The notes below the pieces were generated by a model. The model ran no database searches. It was given only the letters and a program-made list of their open reading frames with translations, and had not been told where the DNA came from. A program made the translations under genes and the position numbers. This document shows, piece by piece, positions 1,574-35,459 of a stretch of DNA of 35,459 nt. Source of the DNA: Pseudomonadota bacterium (lineage in GTDB: Bacteria; Bdellovibrionota; Bdellovibrionia; Bdellovibrionales; JACTMU01); the NCBI GenBank assembly GCA_014584465.1, contig JACTMU010000018.1, forward strand, positions 1-35,459. The letters are read 5' to 3'. The stretch's first letter is position 1. Each line of letters starts with the position of its first letter.

Positions 1574-2592
1574 AAACGATCCAAATAGTGAAACTCTTCG
1601 CCATCCACTTTGTTAGCCCCTGCTTCATGAAGCCAACAAAGACTTTCATGTCCATTGCTCTTATAATTCCTTGGAGGATGATCTCGACAAACATTCATCG
1701 CGTAAGGACAACGAGCAAAATATCCGCACCCTTTGGGCGGATGAAATAGATCTGGTGGAGAGCCCTCAATAGGTTCAAGACGCCGTTTGTATCCCTCTCG
1801 ATTGGAGGGCATCGCAGCTCGCAACCCCATTGTGTAGGGATGAGAGGGTCGATAGTAGATGTCATCAACGCTTCCTGATTCCACAATGAGCCCCGCATAC
1901 ATGACAGAGACATCATCGGCCATTCGAGCCACCACCCCCAGATCATGGGTGATCAAGATCAAGGACATAGTCTCCTGTTTTTCAAGCTCTTTGAGAAGTT
2001 CTAATATCTGTTCTTGAATGGTCACATCCAGTGCTGTAGTCGGTTCATCGGCCACCAGAATTTGAGGTCTGCATGCCAGGGCCATCGAAATCATCGCCCT
2101 TTGGAGCATCCCCCCCGAAAACTCAAATGGATATTGATTGGACCTCTTCTTTGCTTCGGGAATCTTCGTTTGGTCCAAAAGATCTACGGCGCGCTTCATC
2201 CCTTCACTGTGACTGACGCCATAGTGAACCTTCAATGTCTCGCAAATTTGCTTTCCAATGGTCATTGTAGGATTGAGTGAGGTCATAGGATCTTGAAAAA
2301 TCATTCCAATTCGTCGACCTCGTATGGAGTTGAGCTTTGCTCTGGAAACACCCAAGATCTCCTCGCCCTCCAAAATGGCAGATCCTCGAGTCACTCGCCC
2401 CGGTGGCATTGGAATCAATCCCAAAATGGACTGCACGGTCACCGACTTGCCACACCCCGATTCTCCCACAATGGCCATGGTCTTTCCCTTAGTGACATCA
2501 AAATTCACACCACGAACGGCATGAACAACCCCACCGTAGGTATCAAATTCCACATCCAGATCTCGAACCTTAAGAATAACCTCTCTGCTCAT
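1570..2592 (-). CDS. oppD: Oligopeptide ABC transporter ATP-binding protein OppD
   Basis: A 340-residue ABC ATPase. It has Walker A (GESGCGKS), Q-loop (MIFQDPMTSLNP), signature (FSGGMLQRAMISMALA), Walker B (ILVADEPTTALD) and H-loop (LITHDLGVVA). A C-terminal oligo_HPY region carries a Cys cluster (GCGYFARCPYAMNVC) that in some family members binds an iron-sulfur cluster. It overlaps oppC upstream and oppF downstream by four bases each, giving a tightly coupled CDF block. Length and motif order are those of canonical OppD. Confidence 0.93.
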   Translation of the reverse strand: MSREVILKVRDLDVEFDTYGGVVHAVRGVNFDVTKGKTMAIVGESGCGKSVTVQSILGLIPMPPGRVTRGSAILEGEEILGVSRAKLNSIRGRRIGMIFQDPMTSLNPTMTIGKQICETLKVHYGVSHSEGMKRAVDLLDQTKIPEAKKRSNQYPFEFSGGMLQRAMISMALACRPQILVADEPTTALDVTIQEQILELLKELEKQETMSLILITHDLGVVARMADDVSVMYAGLIVESGSVDDIYYRPSHPYTMGLRAAMPSNREGYKRRLEPIEGSPPDLFHPPKGCGYFARCPYAMNVCRDHPPRNYKSNGHESLCWLHEAGANKVDGEEFHYLDRL

Positions 2593-3971
2593 TCTCGAGA
2601 CCTCATTCGCGCATCCATCGCATCCCGTAAACCATCCCCTAAGAGGTTGAATGCGAGAACTGTAAAACTGATGATCAGGGCTGGAAAGAGAAGCTCATGA
2701 GGCGTGTTGAGCATCGTCTTGATTCCCTCGTTGCACATAGTCCCCCATGAAGCTGTTGGAGGCGTTACGCCCATCCCAATGAACGACAAAAAAGCTTCTG
2801 TAAAAATGGCCGTAGGCACAGCAAAAGTGAGCGTCACTATAAGTATCCCCATCATATTGGGAACCATGTGACGTCCTAAGAGATAGATGGGTCGCGCACC
2901 CAAAAGTTTTGCAGCTTGAATGAAACCCTCTTCACGAAGCTTTAATATCTCACCACGAACCAAACGGGCCGGTGCGGGCCACGACAACGCCACAAAAGCC
3001 ACAATCATCGGAAGAATCCCACTCTCCCCAGGGCCAATTCCAAAAGCCACCTTGAAAATGATCATGAAGAGGAGAAAGGGAAGAGCCACAACAAAATCGG
3101 CAGCTCTCATCATCCAATGATCCACACGGCCCCCAAGATACCCAGAAAGCCCTCCATAGAGAGTTCCAATCAAGATATAGAGAAACGGTGTCACCAACCC
3201 AATGAAGAGCGAGACTCTTGCGCCTTCCATCAAACGCGCAAGGATATCTCTTCCCAGATAATCGGTCCCTAATGGATGAGCCGCTCGACGGATTTGATCT
3301 CCAACCTTCACGTCACCACGGATCTTCTGAGCATCCTCAAGGGCAATCGCCTGAGCAACTTCAACTTTCAATGTGGCAAAATGTTCGGACTCCCCACCAA
3401 AACCCTTTGCAACCACGCTGTAGTAGTAGGATCGCGCTTCAAGCTTCAATCGATCTTCATACCCTACGCGATTTCCCCCTTCCACGTCTCCTAAGGGGAC
3501 GCCCAACGAGAATATATCTTCGGGTTGGGCCTCATTTCGAAAAATGGCATATCCGGTCGCACCCACAACGGGTTCCCACTCAATGCGCGTTGAAAAAATA
3601 TGGGGCGCTCCAACAATCTTAATGGAACTGGGTGCTGCAAGCTCCTCAACCTCCTCCTGTGGCTCCTCTGGAAAATCCTCGCGCACCAACCCTTCCCACT
3701 CGCGACCCTCTTCCACAACCACAGCCTGATCTCCAAATGAGGGAGATTGAGAAATATGAGCCAAGTCCTGATAGGCAGGATCCACATTCCAAATGAAGGG
3801 ACCCACAACTGTAAAAAAGATAAGTGCCAAAACGATGTAGAGAGAAGCAACAGCTCGACCATTTTTGCGCAAACGAATCATGGCGTCCTGCCAATAGGAG
3901 AGCGAAGGTCGTGTTAAGACCTCAACAGATCTCTCTCTTTCAGCCCTGCCAAAATCCAAACCCTGCCCCAT
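2589..3971 (-). CDS. oppC: Oligopeptide ABC transporter permease OppC with an inserted FN3-like periplasmic domain
   Basis: A 460-residue inner-membrane permease, about 150 residues longer than usual OppC. Residues 1-62 hold the cytoplasmic start and first membrane segment. The conserved HPLGTDYLGRD motif comes only at about residue 232, where in ordinary OppC it follows the first segment by a few dozen residues. From there the five remaining segments and the EAA loop (GFIQAAKLLGA) are normal. The extra stretch has an acidic linker (about residues 85-112, rich in E) and then a fibronectin type III-like module (about 113-208): a Trp strand WEPVVGATGYAIFR and the late strand SYYYSVVAKGFGGES. 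Topology puts it in the periplasm, near where OppA docks. It may help bind peptide or the binding protein; that is inference. Confidence 0.92.
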   Translation of the reverse strand: MGQGLDFGRAERERSVEVLTRPSLSYWQDAMIRLRKNGRAVASLYIVLALIFFTVVGPFIWNVDPAYQDLAHISQSPSFGDQAVVVEEGREWEGLVREDFPEEPQEEVEELAAPSSIKIVGAPHIFSTRIEWEPVVGATGYAIFRNEAQPEDIFSLGVPLGDVEGGNRVGYEDRLKLEARSYYYSVVAKGFGGESEHFATLKVEVAQAIALEDAQKIRGDVKVGDQIRRAAHPLGTDYLGRDILARLMEGARVSLFIGLVTPFLYILIGTLYGGLSGYLGGRVDHWMMRAADFVVALPFLLFMIIFKVAFGIGPGESGILPMIVAFVALSWPAPARLVRGEILKLREEGFIQAAKLLGARPIYLLGRHMVPNMMGILIVTLTFAVPTAIFTEAFLSFIGMGVTPPTASWGTMCNEGIKTMLNTPHELLFPALIISFTVLAFNLLGDGLRDAMDARMRSRE

Positions 3972-32520: not shown

Positions 32521-32862
32521 ATGAAAAAGGATCGAACCGTACCCGTCACCGAAGAAGTACGGGTCTTGAAATACATGAGAATTCAAGCTGGTCTTTCACT
32601 CAAGAAAGCCGCCAAGCAATTCAACATGACTGACGGAGCTATCAGTCATATCGAGAACGGCAAGATGCGGTTGCCATCTGATCGCATCGAACAAATGGTC
32701 ACGGTCTACGGCTTTGCCATGAGCGATTTTTTCAAGCTCTCGCGGTCTAAGAAGTTGCCAAATGATCGCCGCCAAGAATGCGAACGACTTCTCAAGACGA
32801 CGCCAATCACTCGGTTGGATGACGTTTTCAATTTTCTCAAATCAATAAGCACTGGAGGTTAA
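32521..32862 (+). CDS. XRE-family helix-turn-helix regulator
   Basis: 113 residues. A lambda-repressor-like HTH covers about residues 15-70: LKYMRIQAGLSLKKAAKQF, then MTDGAISHIENGKM with the recognition helix, and a final helix with MVTVYGFAMSDFF. The rest is a short helical tail. It is probably the controller of the downstream island genes and the first gene after tRNA-Gly. GGGG lies about eight bases before ATG. A 61-residue peptide gene starts one base after its stop. Confidence 0.85.
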   Translation: MKKDRTVPVTEEVRVLKYMRIQAGLSLKKAAKQFNMTDGAISHIENGKMRLPSDRIEQMVTVYGFAMSDFFKLSRSKKLPNDRRQECERLLKTTPITRLDDVFNFLKSISTGG

Positions 32863-33056: not shown

Positions 33057-33392
33057 TTAGGCTCTCGCGTACCGATAGGTCCCTTTGATGTATTGAGAAA
33101 GATATTGCCCTTTGGATGATGCCCCTTTAAGCTGAACTTTAATCCACCGATTTCCATAAGGACGGGCTTCAACTTCTCGATCAGGTGCGGCTCCCACTCC
33201 AACCTGCGATACTACACCGTATAGATCAACATAACCGACCGGAATCCGTACAAAGCTACCAACTTGCCCTATACGATATCCTTCACCGCGTACAAAACTA
33301 AGTCCCGTAACGGTTTCATTTTTCAATTCAACGGTAATTGTCACTCCGTGAACATCCTGAACCGTTCCGATCAGTGTTGGATCGTGAGTCAC
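33057..33392 (-). pseudogene. HerA HAS-barrel domain only (truncated HerA helicase of a SIR2-HerA system)
   Basis: 111 residues that match the N-terminal HAS barrel of HerA-type helicases: IGTVQDVHGVTITVEL, then YRIGQVGSFVRIPVGY and LYGVVSQVG. Full HerA proteins continue with a RecA-like ATPase of about 400 more residues containing Walker A; here the frame stops after RYARA and no ATPase follows in any frame toward 32864. The start overlaps the SIR2-like gene by four bases (ATGA), exactly as in intact SIR2-HerA operons. It is either a decayed gene or a deliberately short HAS-barrel protein. I favour decay. Confidence 0.7.
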
Positions 33393-33808
33393 TTTGAGCT
33401 TTCCCCGCTATCATCACGAAGAGTGGTCTGATGTGCCAGGAAATTTCCAAGTGACATGAAACCTCCGAGTATGAACTTGCAGCGCTCGTCACGAGCTTTG
33501 GTTCTCCCATCAAGTTTTCCAGTCACGACTGCAAATGCATGGAGTGGGTTATCTGTTTTGGCGGTTTCGTGCCAATCTCCATCCATGGTTCCCAGAACAG
33601 CTCCATCGACAGCCAGTAAATTCAGATTTGCGCACTTTCGAGCTTCCAAAAGAGCTGCTGGATAGTCGGATTTATCGCCAAAGAGACATCCAAAGCAAAT
33701 AGCAGTTGGATTGGAATTGAGTCCGTGAATAATAACTTCATTCAAGTGCTGGTCTGAGAAAGAATATCCAATTTTCGCATTCGCTTTTTTCTCAAAATCC
33801 GCAACCAC
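33389..33808 (-). pseudogene. C-terminal part of a SIR2-like NADase domain protein
   Basis: 139 residues starting at GTG 33808, directly after an in-frame TGA. The SIR2_2-type signature IGYSFSDQHLNEVI is near the start, with the later family elements NLNLLAVDGAVLGTMDGDW and GGFMSLGNFLAHQ. In intact SIR2 proteins of defence systems the Rossmann NAD-binding half, with GAGxS and the catalytic Asn/His, precedes this; it is missing. With the HAS-barrel gene it makes a remnant of the SIR2-HerA anti-phage module, which depletes NAD+ on infection. Confidence 0.72.
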
Positions 33809-34177
33809 TCAGAATTTCAACAGTAATCAAATCACACGGTTACGCTCGCCGAATTCGGTGATGTCACATGATGCTTTCTGATTTTTCGTAGTTTTGGTCT
33901 GCAGAAGTCTGGATTTGGTCTGGATAAGTCTGGATGGCGACCCTCTCAGAAAGTGATCTAACATCTTAATTTCTGTGAACGAATCATTGAATCAGCGAGA
34001 ATCAAAAGTGTCGCTACGCCCAGGTCAAAAAATCTGGTTCACGTCTGACAGTCTGACTACGAGACCATAGTCGCCCTCTTTGCCATCATCCAAATAAACA
34101 AAATCTAATGAACCCCGTCATTTGCCCCGTAAGGTTTTAGCTCTCGAAAGCCGACAAGAATCAGGGATTTAGCAACT
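33809..34177. other. Intergenic region between the SIR2 remnant and qatB, with short direct repeats
   Basis: The 369 bases have no supported gene. The first 90 or so, read on the minus strand, are where the lost SIR2 half should be, but I find no recognisable SIR2 residues in any frame. GTCTGACA/GTCTGACT occurs in tandem at 34043-34058. The qatB promoter must lie here, but no box is convincing. Confidence 0.5.
33893..33934. repeat. Two tandem 21-bp direct repeats
   Basis: TTTGGTCTGCAGAAGTCTGG (33893-33912, plus A) and TTTGGTCTGGATAAGTCTGG (33914-33933, plus A) differ at two bases. The 21-bp period is two helical turns, suggesting a two-site operator or a slippage product, in the divergent control region of qatB and the SIR2 remnant. 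Confidence 0.6.
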
Positions 34178-34771
34178 ATGGGAACATCAGTATCACATCC
34201 ATCACCAGGTGGCTCATCAGCAGGCGGTTCTGAATGGAAGGCAGCCAAAGAGTCTATCAAAGACGGGGCACAGCCACGTCAAATTGTTCAGAATGTTCTC
34301 GCTGCGTTCGGTGCAGAATACGGTGCCGAAGCTCAAGCAGTTCTCATTGATTCAGGTGTAAAAAAAGTAGCGGAGATTCTGGACAACAAACTCCGAGAGG
34401 CCCCTACCAGAAATCAAATGCTGGTAGCCGGGTTCATTACCGATGCTCGCAAAGAACTTGCCCTAACACAAACCAACTCATTCTTCGCTGAACTTGCACT
34501 CGCCGCCGGATCAAAAGCAATTCTTCAAGGCGGTGACAGTCCCTCAAAAGCCTTTGCTGCGGACTTCGCTTCCAAAGTGGTTGATTACGTCGTCTCAAGA
34601 GACCTTCCCTCTACGATTGGATCAAAGGGTCTAGCTAATCTTGAATCGGTAAATAGACTTTTAGGATCAGTCTCTGCGGATTTTCAGGGGCGGGCCCAAG
34701 CATCTGATGAAACCAACTCCGTTAGTATTCTTGAAAACCTCTTAGCAATTCCACGGAGACGTGAACCATGA
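34178..34771 (+). CDS. qatB: QatB-like protein of a Qat-type anti-phage system
   Basis: 197 residues. The N-terminus MGTSVSHPSPGG matches the MGTS-x-S-x2-GP-type start of QatB, followed by a helical, alanine-rich body (IVQNVLAAFGAEYGAEA, FFAELALAAGSKAIL). It is shorter than typical QatB. QatB's biochemical role is not known; it is required for Qat defence. The assignment rests mostly on the coupled next gene: the stop overlaps the qatC start by four bases (ATGA). AGGGA lies ten bases before ATG 34178. No qatA ATPase precedes it. Confidence 0.65.
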   Translation: MGTSVSHPSPGGSSAGGSEWKAAKESIKDGAQPRQIVQNVLAAFGAEYGAEAQAVLIDSGVKKVAEILDNKLREAPTRNQMLVAGFITDARKELALTQTNSFFAELALAAGSKAILQGGDSPSKAFAADFASKVVDYVVSRDLPSTIGSKGLANLESVNRLLGSVSADFQGRAQASDETNSVSILENLLAIPRRREP

Positions 34772-35459
34772 ACGAGTTCACAGTCACCGTTGACAGAGCG
34801 CGGGATCAGCTCCGGGTTACTCCCGGTCGTGTGTACCTTCCGTATGCACGAGAGGGGCAACTTTGGAGTGATCTTGAAAAGCCCTCAAAGGCAACACCGA
34901 ATGGGCATCTCTCACCCGAAGCTCAAGACTTGGTCGATTTTGCTACCGCGATCTTTCATCTCGATAAGATTTGCCCGCGTGGTGAACGTGAACGATGGGT
35001 GCGAAAAATTCATCTTAAAATCGGACTTAGAAACCCAGCGCAGTTTAATTTAATTGCGGATGACCTGAAGTGGGCCTTATCGATTCTTGGTGGGGACAAT
35101 TTTACTTTCGAGGTGACTACTATCCGAACAACTCCCCCGACAGCAACAAAGGGAACGAAGAAGGTCAGGGGTTGGGGACAACTTACCGACATTGCCCTTC
35201 TCTCAGGTGGTCAAGATAGCTTTGCTGGTGCGGCGAAGATCCTTGAGATCCAAGCAAACAACCCACTCCTCGTAAGAGTACATACGCGAGACAAATCAAA
35301 TCCAAGTGAAGTTACAGCCAAACTGAGACAGAGGTTCAATCGTGAACCTGCATTTTACTCCCAATCATTGTCTCTCAGTAAAGTTGACCCACCTGTTCTC
35401 GCTAAAATTGACCCTTTTATTCACTGGCTTACCAATAATTCGTTAGCCCATGGATGTTG
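34768..35459 (+). CDS. qatC: QatC, QueC-like PP-loop protein (partial, runs off window)
   Basis: First 230 residues of a protein open to the last base. An N-terminal domain of about 140 residues precedes the PP-loop LLSGGQDSFAGA (144-155; SGGxDS motif), as in QatC, which carries a QueC-like domain after an extra N-terminal region. QueC makes the 7-cyano-7-deazaguanine base from CDG; Qat systems use this chemistry in phage defence in a way not established. The ATGA overlap with qatB implies coupled translation. qatD (TatD-like nuclease) and possibly qatA would be expected beyond 35459. Confidence 0.78.
   Translation, partial: MNEFTVTVDRARDQLRVTPGRVYLPYAREGQLWSDLEKPSKATPNGHLSPEAQDLVDFATAIFHLDKICPRGERERWVRKIHLKIGLRNPAQFNLIADDLKWALSILGGDNFTFEVTTIRTTPPTATKGTKKVRGWGQLTDIALLSGGQDSFAGAAKILEIQANNPLLVRVHTRDKSNPSEVTAKLRQRFNREPAFYSQSLSLSKVDPPVLAKIDPFIHWLTNNSLAHGC

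Follow-up and report, generated by a model that had tools for sequence, protein, structure and literature searches.

A qatB-like gene and the beginning of a qatC gene occupy the right end of the window (the whole stretch of 35,459 nucleotides that was analysed, which is the entire contig G000:C49 of a 3.75-Mb source genome in 120 contigs), and no qatA stands beside them. The question raised by this locus is whether the pair is an excerpt of a qatABCD operon, the leftover of one, or a Qat unit of another composition. Our reading is that the window probably holds the left half of a Qat variant, comprising a qatB-like gene, qatC, and a gene for a small membrane protein that would serve as a membrane effector, and that this copy has very probably been inactivated by an insertion sequence (IS).

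The qatB-like gene (34178..34771, forward strand) encodes 197 amino acids, with an MGTSVSHPSP...EW20 tail and a predicted all-helical body. An ATGA overlap joins its ORF to that of qatC, whose 5' part (34768..35365, forward strand) comprises 199 complete native codons and one base up to the IS. The SGGQDS PP-loop motif of QatC (35203..35220, forward strand; residues 146-151) follows an N-terminal domain and is the motif described in PMC13279940. The stretch before the pair (33809-34177) is intergenic and contains no ATPase gene upstream of qatB. Beyond it lie a C-terminal SIR2 remnant (33389..33808, reverse strand; profile positions 265-379 of 399, E 1e-21), an N-terminal HerA remnant (33057..33392, reverse strand; profile positions 7-98 of 576, E 2e-9), and an XRE/HTH regulator (32521..32862, forward strand), which may or may not belong to the qat unit. 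The truncated SIR2 and HerA genes (33057-33808) are the remains of a SIR2-HerA defence system adjoining the qat unit. An earlier note on this DNA had already described the MGTS start, the ATGA coupling with the SGGQDS motif, the absence of an ATPase from the approximately 370 bp before qatB, and these neighbours, and all were found again here; it overlooked the IS interruption of qatC and the conserved membrane-protein gene as the third gene of the unit.

The last 94 bases of the window (35366..35459, forward strand) are not qatC but one end of a multicopy IS, and the contig stops inside this element. The 94-base end is repeated with 97-100% identity at ten other contig ends, its terminal repeat occurs on eleven further contig ends, and IS ends are located on ~22 contig ends overall. 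The conserved left end reads CATTGTCTCTCAGTAAAGTTGACCC and the right end ...CTGAGAGACAACG; they are inverted repeats, agreeing at 47 of the first 49 positions. When the genome was searched with a QatC profile, a single further piece was found; it lies immediately next to the right IS end, with which contig C11 begins. We found that the 6-bp sequence CCCAAT lies both immediately before the left IS end on C49 (35360..35365, forward strand) and immediately after the right IS end on C11 (L014:99-104), as a target-site duplication, and that qatC resumes at L014 99 in a continuous frame. Duplications of 6-8 bp likewise pair up left and right contig ends of this IS in six further cases. In G055, a Pseudobdellovibrio sp. 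MAG (JAMPXC010000032.1), qatC runs without interruption through the insertion point, with 75% identity to the first half and 87% to the second. Because the IS ends are opposite, CCCAAT stands on both sides, the frame is continuous, the same rule holds in other pairs, and the G055 gene is uninterrupted, we conclude that the IS has split qatC after codon 199, with the PP-loop on one side and the remaining active site on the other. Since the IS parts the PP-loop from the substrate-site threonines and the zinc cysteines, the split enzyme would be inactive and the unit is very probably dead in the source genome.

We consider it highly improbable that the split is an effect of assembly, with the IS carried by some members of the sequenced population only, or with C49 and C11 not being neighbours. 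Every copy of the IS ends a contig, no contig spans it, and its interior was not found; a mixed population is a possible source of such a split. However, the only other QatC piece of the genome sits on C11, where the frame and the duplication fit exactly, as the same rule does in the other contig pairs. The target-site duplications also suggest further neighbouring contigs in the source genome (G000), namely C107-C45, C86-C24, C96-C15, C94-C82, C65-C92, and C54-C44. The GACCC repeats in the IS ends are reminiscent of IS21-like elements. An IS21-type istA-istB pair on contig C22 was considered as the transposase of the interrupting IS and rejected, as C22 failed to match the IS ends. A shorter element of ~750 bp on contig C46 (L018 about 3118-3863) has ends related to those of the IS in qatC and is possibly a non-autonomous relative. 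Disruption of qatC by an IS is not unique to the window, because an IS3 element lies inside qatC in Moraxella osloensis pNP7-2 (L070 3120-5678) and an IS5 element in Sinorhizobium meliloti ml59 pMl1 (L074 3300-6056).

The earlier note had proposed extending the contig past 35459 in search of an ATPase and a TatD nuclease. Direct extension failed, C49 ending in the IS, but the continuation of qatC was recovered on C11, with no qatA or qatD there. On C11, the gene for a 183-amino-acid protein begins 9 bp past the qatC stop, with hydrophobic segments at about residues 19-37, 51-69, and 89-107. Farther along the same contig, an ORF from the GTG at 1817 and an ORF ending at 2390 (L014 1817-2390) look like one frameshifted gene, and an HNH-like ORF follows at 2406-3320. 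With the G055 QatC as query, QatC was detected in three of the 369 phylum members searched, namely the source genome, G055, and G191, and in all three the gene after qatC encodes a protein of ~183 amino acids with three predicted transmembrane helices, which matched no family. The membrane gene is found in four of the 369 genomes, including all three with qatC, plus one doubtful match (G346). A fragment of it stands at the start of a contig in G031 (G031:C19, L050 130-505), apparently cut by another IS end; no QatC was found in G031.

G055 belongs to the same taxonomic order as the source genome, which suggests that the latter falls in or near Bdellovibrionales. Its qatB and qatC start 85 bp behind a large serine-recombinase-like gene, and its next contig opens with the QatC C-terminus, followed by the membrane gene, whose product is 77% identical to the C11 protein, and then by an Mrr-type nuclease. 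This Mrr-type restriction endonuclease gene (G055:C3, L049 752-1765), directly behind the membrane gene, was not found in the other two genomes. G191, from another family, carries the set on one contig: qatB (197 amino acids, MGTSVSQPSP), qatC (576 amino acids), and, 11 bp after qatC, the membrane gene, encoding a homologue of the C11 protein. The membrane protein shows identities of 34-36% where QatC shows 51%. Although seen in only three loci of one phylum, the three-gene arrangement has persisted over a QatC divergence down to 51% identity. Scans of IMG/VR with QatC, QatB, and membrane-protein queries gave no further members, PLSDB contained no match for the QatB-like or the membrane protein, and a GTDB scan returned only G055 and two distant QatC-like loci.

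No KAP NTPase (qatA) over the cut-off was found anywhere in the source genome, and no qatD (TatD nuclease) stands beside qatC, the only TatD gene of the genome being on C94. Downstream of qatC on C11, G055:C3, and G191 there is nothing resembling qatA or qatD. These results contradict the earlier suggestion that qatA lies downstream of the window; the other suggestion made with it, a reduced or rearranged variant, was right in kind, the relatives G191 and G055 carrying qatBC without qatA and qatD. Could the locus be a decayed qatABCD operon, in which qatA and qatD were deleted and qatB-qatC was left over among dead defence genes? The locus is indeed degrading, with SIR2 and HerA remnants adjoining it and an IS splitting qatC. 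We nevertheless regard such decay as very improbable: neither G191, where the gene set is complete, nor G055, where qatBC is uninterrupted, has qatA or qatD at the locus, the same third gene stands behind qatC in three of three genomes, and the QatC of the unit is a distinct long form (~576-580 versus ~421-466 amino acids). As the copies in both relatives are uninterrupted and lack qatA and qatD as well, the comparison supports a stable variant instead of the decay of a qatABCD operon.

The QatC part in the window matches the PADLOC QatC profile at residues 51-193 (E 1.6e-15) and the NCBIfam QatC profile at residues 48-195 (E 1.2e-18), both matches ending at residues 193-195. In the profile-profile comparison (hhalign) with 13 QatCs of qatABCD systems, QatC aligned over 369 columns with a probability of 100 and an E of 1.9e-47. 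The solved QatCs 9vlk and 9zee were matched by phmmer, with PDB QatC matches at E 7.5e-27. The equivalog cut-off of the NCBIfam QatC model (280 bits), which a canonical QatC passed with 303.5 bits as a control, was not reached by G191 (181.9 bits) or G055 (210.8 bits, from a contig without the C-terminal end). Judged by sequence, the enzyme is certainly a distant relative of known QatC. In the QatC tree, whose branches are long, the one result firm enough for this question is that the three QatCs of the unit group together.

Compared with the Qat system (P. aeruginosa QatBC, PMC13279940; PDB 9zee, 9vlk), the unit has in common qatB placed before qatC with an overlap, the QatB MGTS tail with W20, and, in QatC, the N-terminal extension, the SGGxDS motif, the RxRS segment, the S-T-R-T segment, and the zinc cysteines. 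The SGGQDS form of the motif and all four cysteines are kept, spread over two contigs in the source genome, and S-T-R-T corresponds to T278/T280 of the P. aeruginosa enzyme. The QatC of the unit differs in being ~110-160 residues longer overall and longer at the C-terminus, in an insertion between the first zinc cysteine and CGYC, and in a Tyr-Pro that replaces the conserved His-Pro. Furthermore, QatA and QatD are lacking, the third gene encodes a membrane protein, and the QatB-like protein is shorter, with an unrelated-looking body. In contrast to type IV CBASS, which pairs the QueC-like enzyme Cap9 with an MGGS-tailed CD-NTase (PMC13279940, PMC13329287), the substrate site has Thr/Thr, as in QatC, in the place of Tyr/Asp, the enzyme carries the QatC extensions, and the QatB-like protein, at the place where the CD-NTase partner would be expected, matches no Pfam or PADLOC family. 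Canonical QueC (PF06508, preQ0 synthesis) shares the PP-loop core and the zinc site, but the protein here greatly exceeds it in length and has a far stronger match to QatC.

The partner of QatC is less readily classified. The MGTS start and the Trp at position 20 are common to the QatB-like protein and canonical QatB, and in the profile comparison of the two only the first 14 residues align. The body matches neither NF041924, nor a canonical QatB profile, nor PDB QatB. In a leave-one-out control on the QatBs of qatABCD systems, 11 of the 12 were found; since the QatB that fails too, from Arthrobacter, belongs to a qatABCD-type operon, the mismatch argues only weakly for an unrelated body. The AlphaFold (AF2) model of the QatB-like protein, built from a two-sequence input, is all-helical with ten helices and has low confidence (pLDDT 47); a PDB fold search with this model, which is too poor to interpret, gave nothing below E 0.001. 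The earlier label of a Qat-like pair, and the profile comparison with QatB and QatC proposed along with it, hold for QatC at the E of the alignment given above; for QatB they hold for the MGTS tail within the first 14 residues and not for the body, which shows no detectable relation to canonical QatB.

What could such a unit do? QatB and QatC form a 1:1 complex, and QatBC alone protects against some phages; the N-terminal glycine of the QatB MGTS tail and the active/ATP site of QatC are essential, as are T278/T280 in P. aeruginosa (PMC13279940). By analogy with Cap9, the chemistry may be a modification of the N-terminal glycine; the way in which QatBC halts phages and the functions of QatA and QatD are named as open questions (PMC13279940). 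Because the same tail and the same active-site residues are kept here, we propose the same first step as in P. aeruginosa QatBC: QatC would bind the QatB-like protein and, using ATP, would modify or mark the exposed N-terminal glycine of its MGTS tail, a role that the Cap9 analogy makes plausible. The pair would then act as a sensor or switch. Since the membrane protein is the one conserved extra gene, we propose it as the effector, which would take over from QatA and QatD by damaging the membrane or arresting the infected cell; this role is suggested by its position and conservation, and a defence function of the variant as a whole appears likely.

Alternatively, QatBC may work as a complete system by itself, in which case the membrane protein would regulate it, serve as an immunity-type partner, or be carried along as a passenger. 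For the P. aeruginosa and E. coli systems, QatBC is enough to protect against phage lambda when QatA and QatD are missing (PMC13279940), and the identities given above show weaker conservation of the membrane gene than of qatC. We think this reading unlikely, given that the membrane gene has stayed in position even where QatC identity is down to 51% and that hardly any other genome of the phylum has it. A role outside defence, with the QueC-like enzyme modifying proteins as a housekeeping function, is in our view quite improbable. All three genomes contain homologues of QueC and QueD and a QueE-like match below the curated cut-off, a set that is compatible with deazaguanine use and has no power to discriminate substrates; the QueD homologue and the sub-cut-off QueE-like match suggest that the host makes the CDG precursor. 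However, the source genome has a separate canonical QueC (contig C66), QatC is present in only 3 of the 369 genomes, it lies near recombinases in G055 and near the SIR2/HerA remnants in the window, and it tolerates disruption by an IS.

The proposed membrane-effector unit can be set beside other QatC loci. We surveyed the neighbourhoods of 25 QatC-like loci from PLSDB and INPHARED, a small sample partly chosen for oddity, so that the counts are not frequencies. The A-B-C-D order was found in 18 of them, two more, the Moraxella and Sinorhizobium loci mentioned above, are A-B-C-D-like with an IS inside qatC (qatA not being listed in one), and qatA is lacking in the remaining five. This fits the report that qatA is a neighbour of only about 34% of QatC-cluster genes (PMC13329287). 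In Leptospira noguchii plasmid p1_LIP1709037 (L036 5830-7695), a 621-amino-acid QatC-like protein contains a C-terminal DpnII-MboI domain (PF18742; 38.3 bits versus a cut-off of 27), and the fusion stands behind a gene at the QatB position without an adjacent qatA or qatD. A Bradyrhizobium japonicum USDA 123 plasmid (L060 947-6700) carries in a row a CHAT protein (1041 amino acids), a glycine-rich MGSGS-start protein, a QatC-like protein, and an ASCH protein; the upstream CHAT match is just over the cut-off, the ASCH protein lies downstream, and the row is possibly another QatBC variant. On two plasmids of one strain, Natrinema sp. DC36 (L062 3873-6206 and L073 3873-6206), an MGSASASS-start 159-amino-acid protein and a 141-amino-acid protein precede the archaeal QatC-like gene, without qatA or qatD. 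In the unverified contig of Listeria phage LM 4-11-1 (L071 3109-6846), an MGTN-start 206-amino-acid protein is accompanied by a short QatC of 400 amino acids and a QatD-like gene, and an unrelated 358-amino-acid gene occupies the place of qatA.

From these loci we tentatively suggest, with rather less than even confidence, that QatBC is a modular recognition/modification core with interchangeable effectors, in which the MG[TS]-tailed partner has a freely varying body and the unit described here is the membrane-effector type. The loci hint at an effector list comprising the KAP ATPase and TatD (classical Qat), the three-helix membrane protein (Bdellovibrionales and relatives), a DpnII/MboI-type nuclease fusion (Leptospira), and CHAT (Bradyrhizobium). 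A comparison of tail and body asks whether the MG[TS] tail alone defines the substrate of QatC. A natural form without QatA and QatD and with one conserved membrane protein is a small testable system; should protection depend on the membrane gene, or should this gene prove toxic once QatBC is activated, the step at which Qat-like immunity takes effect would become visible.
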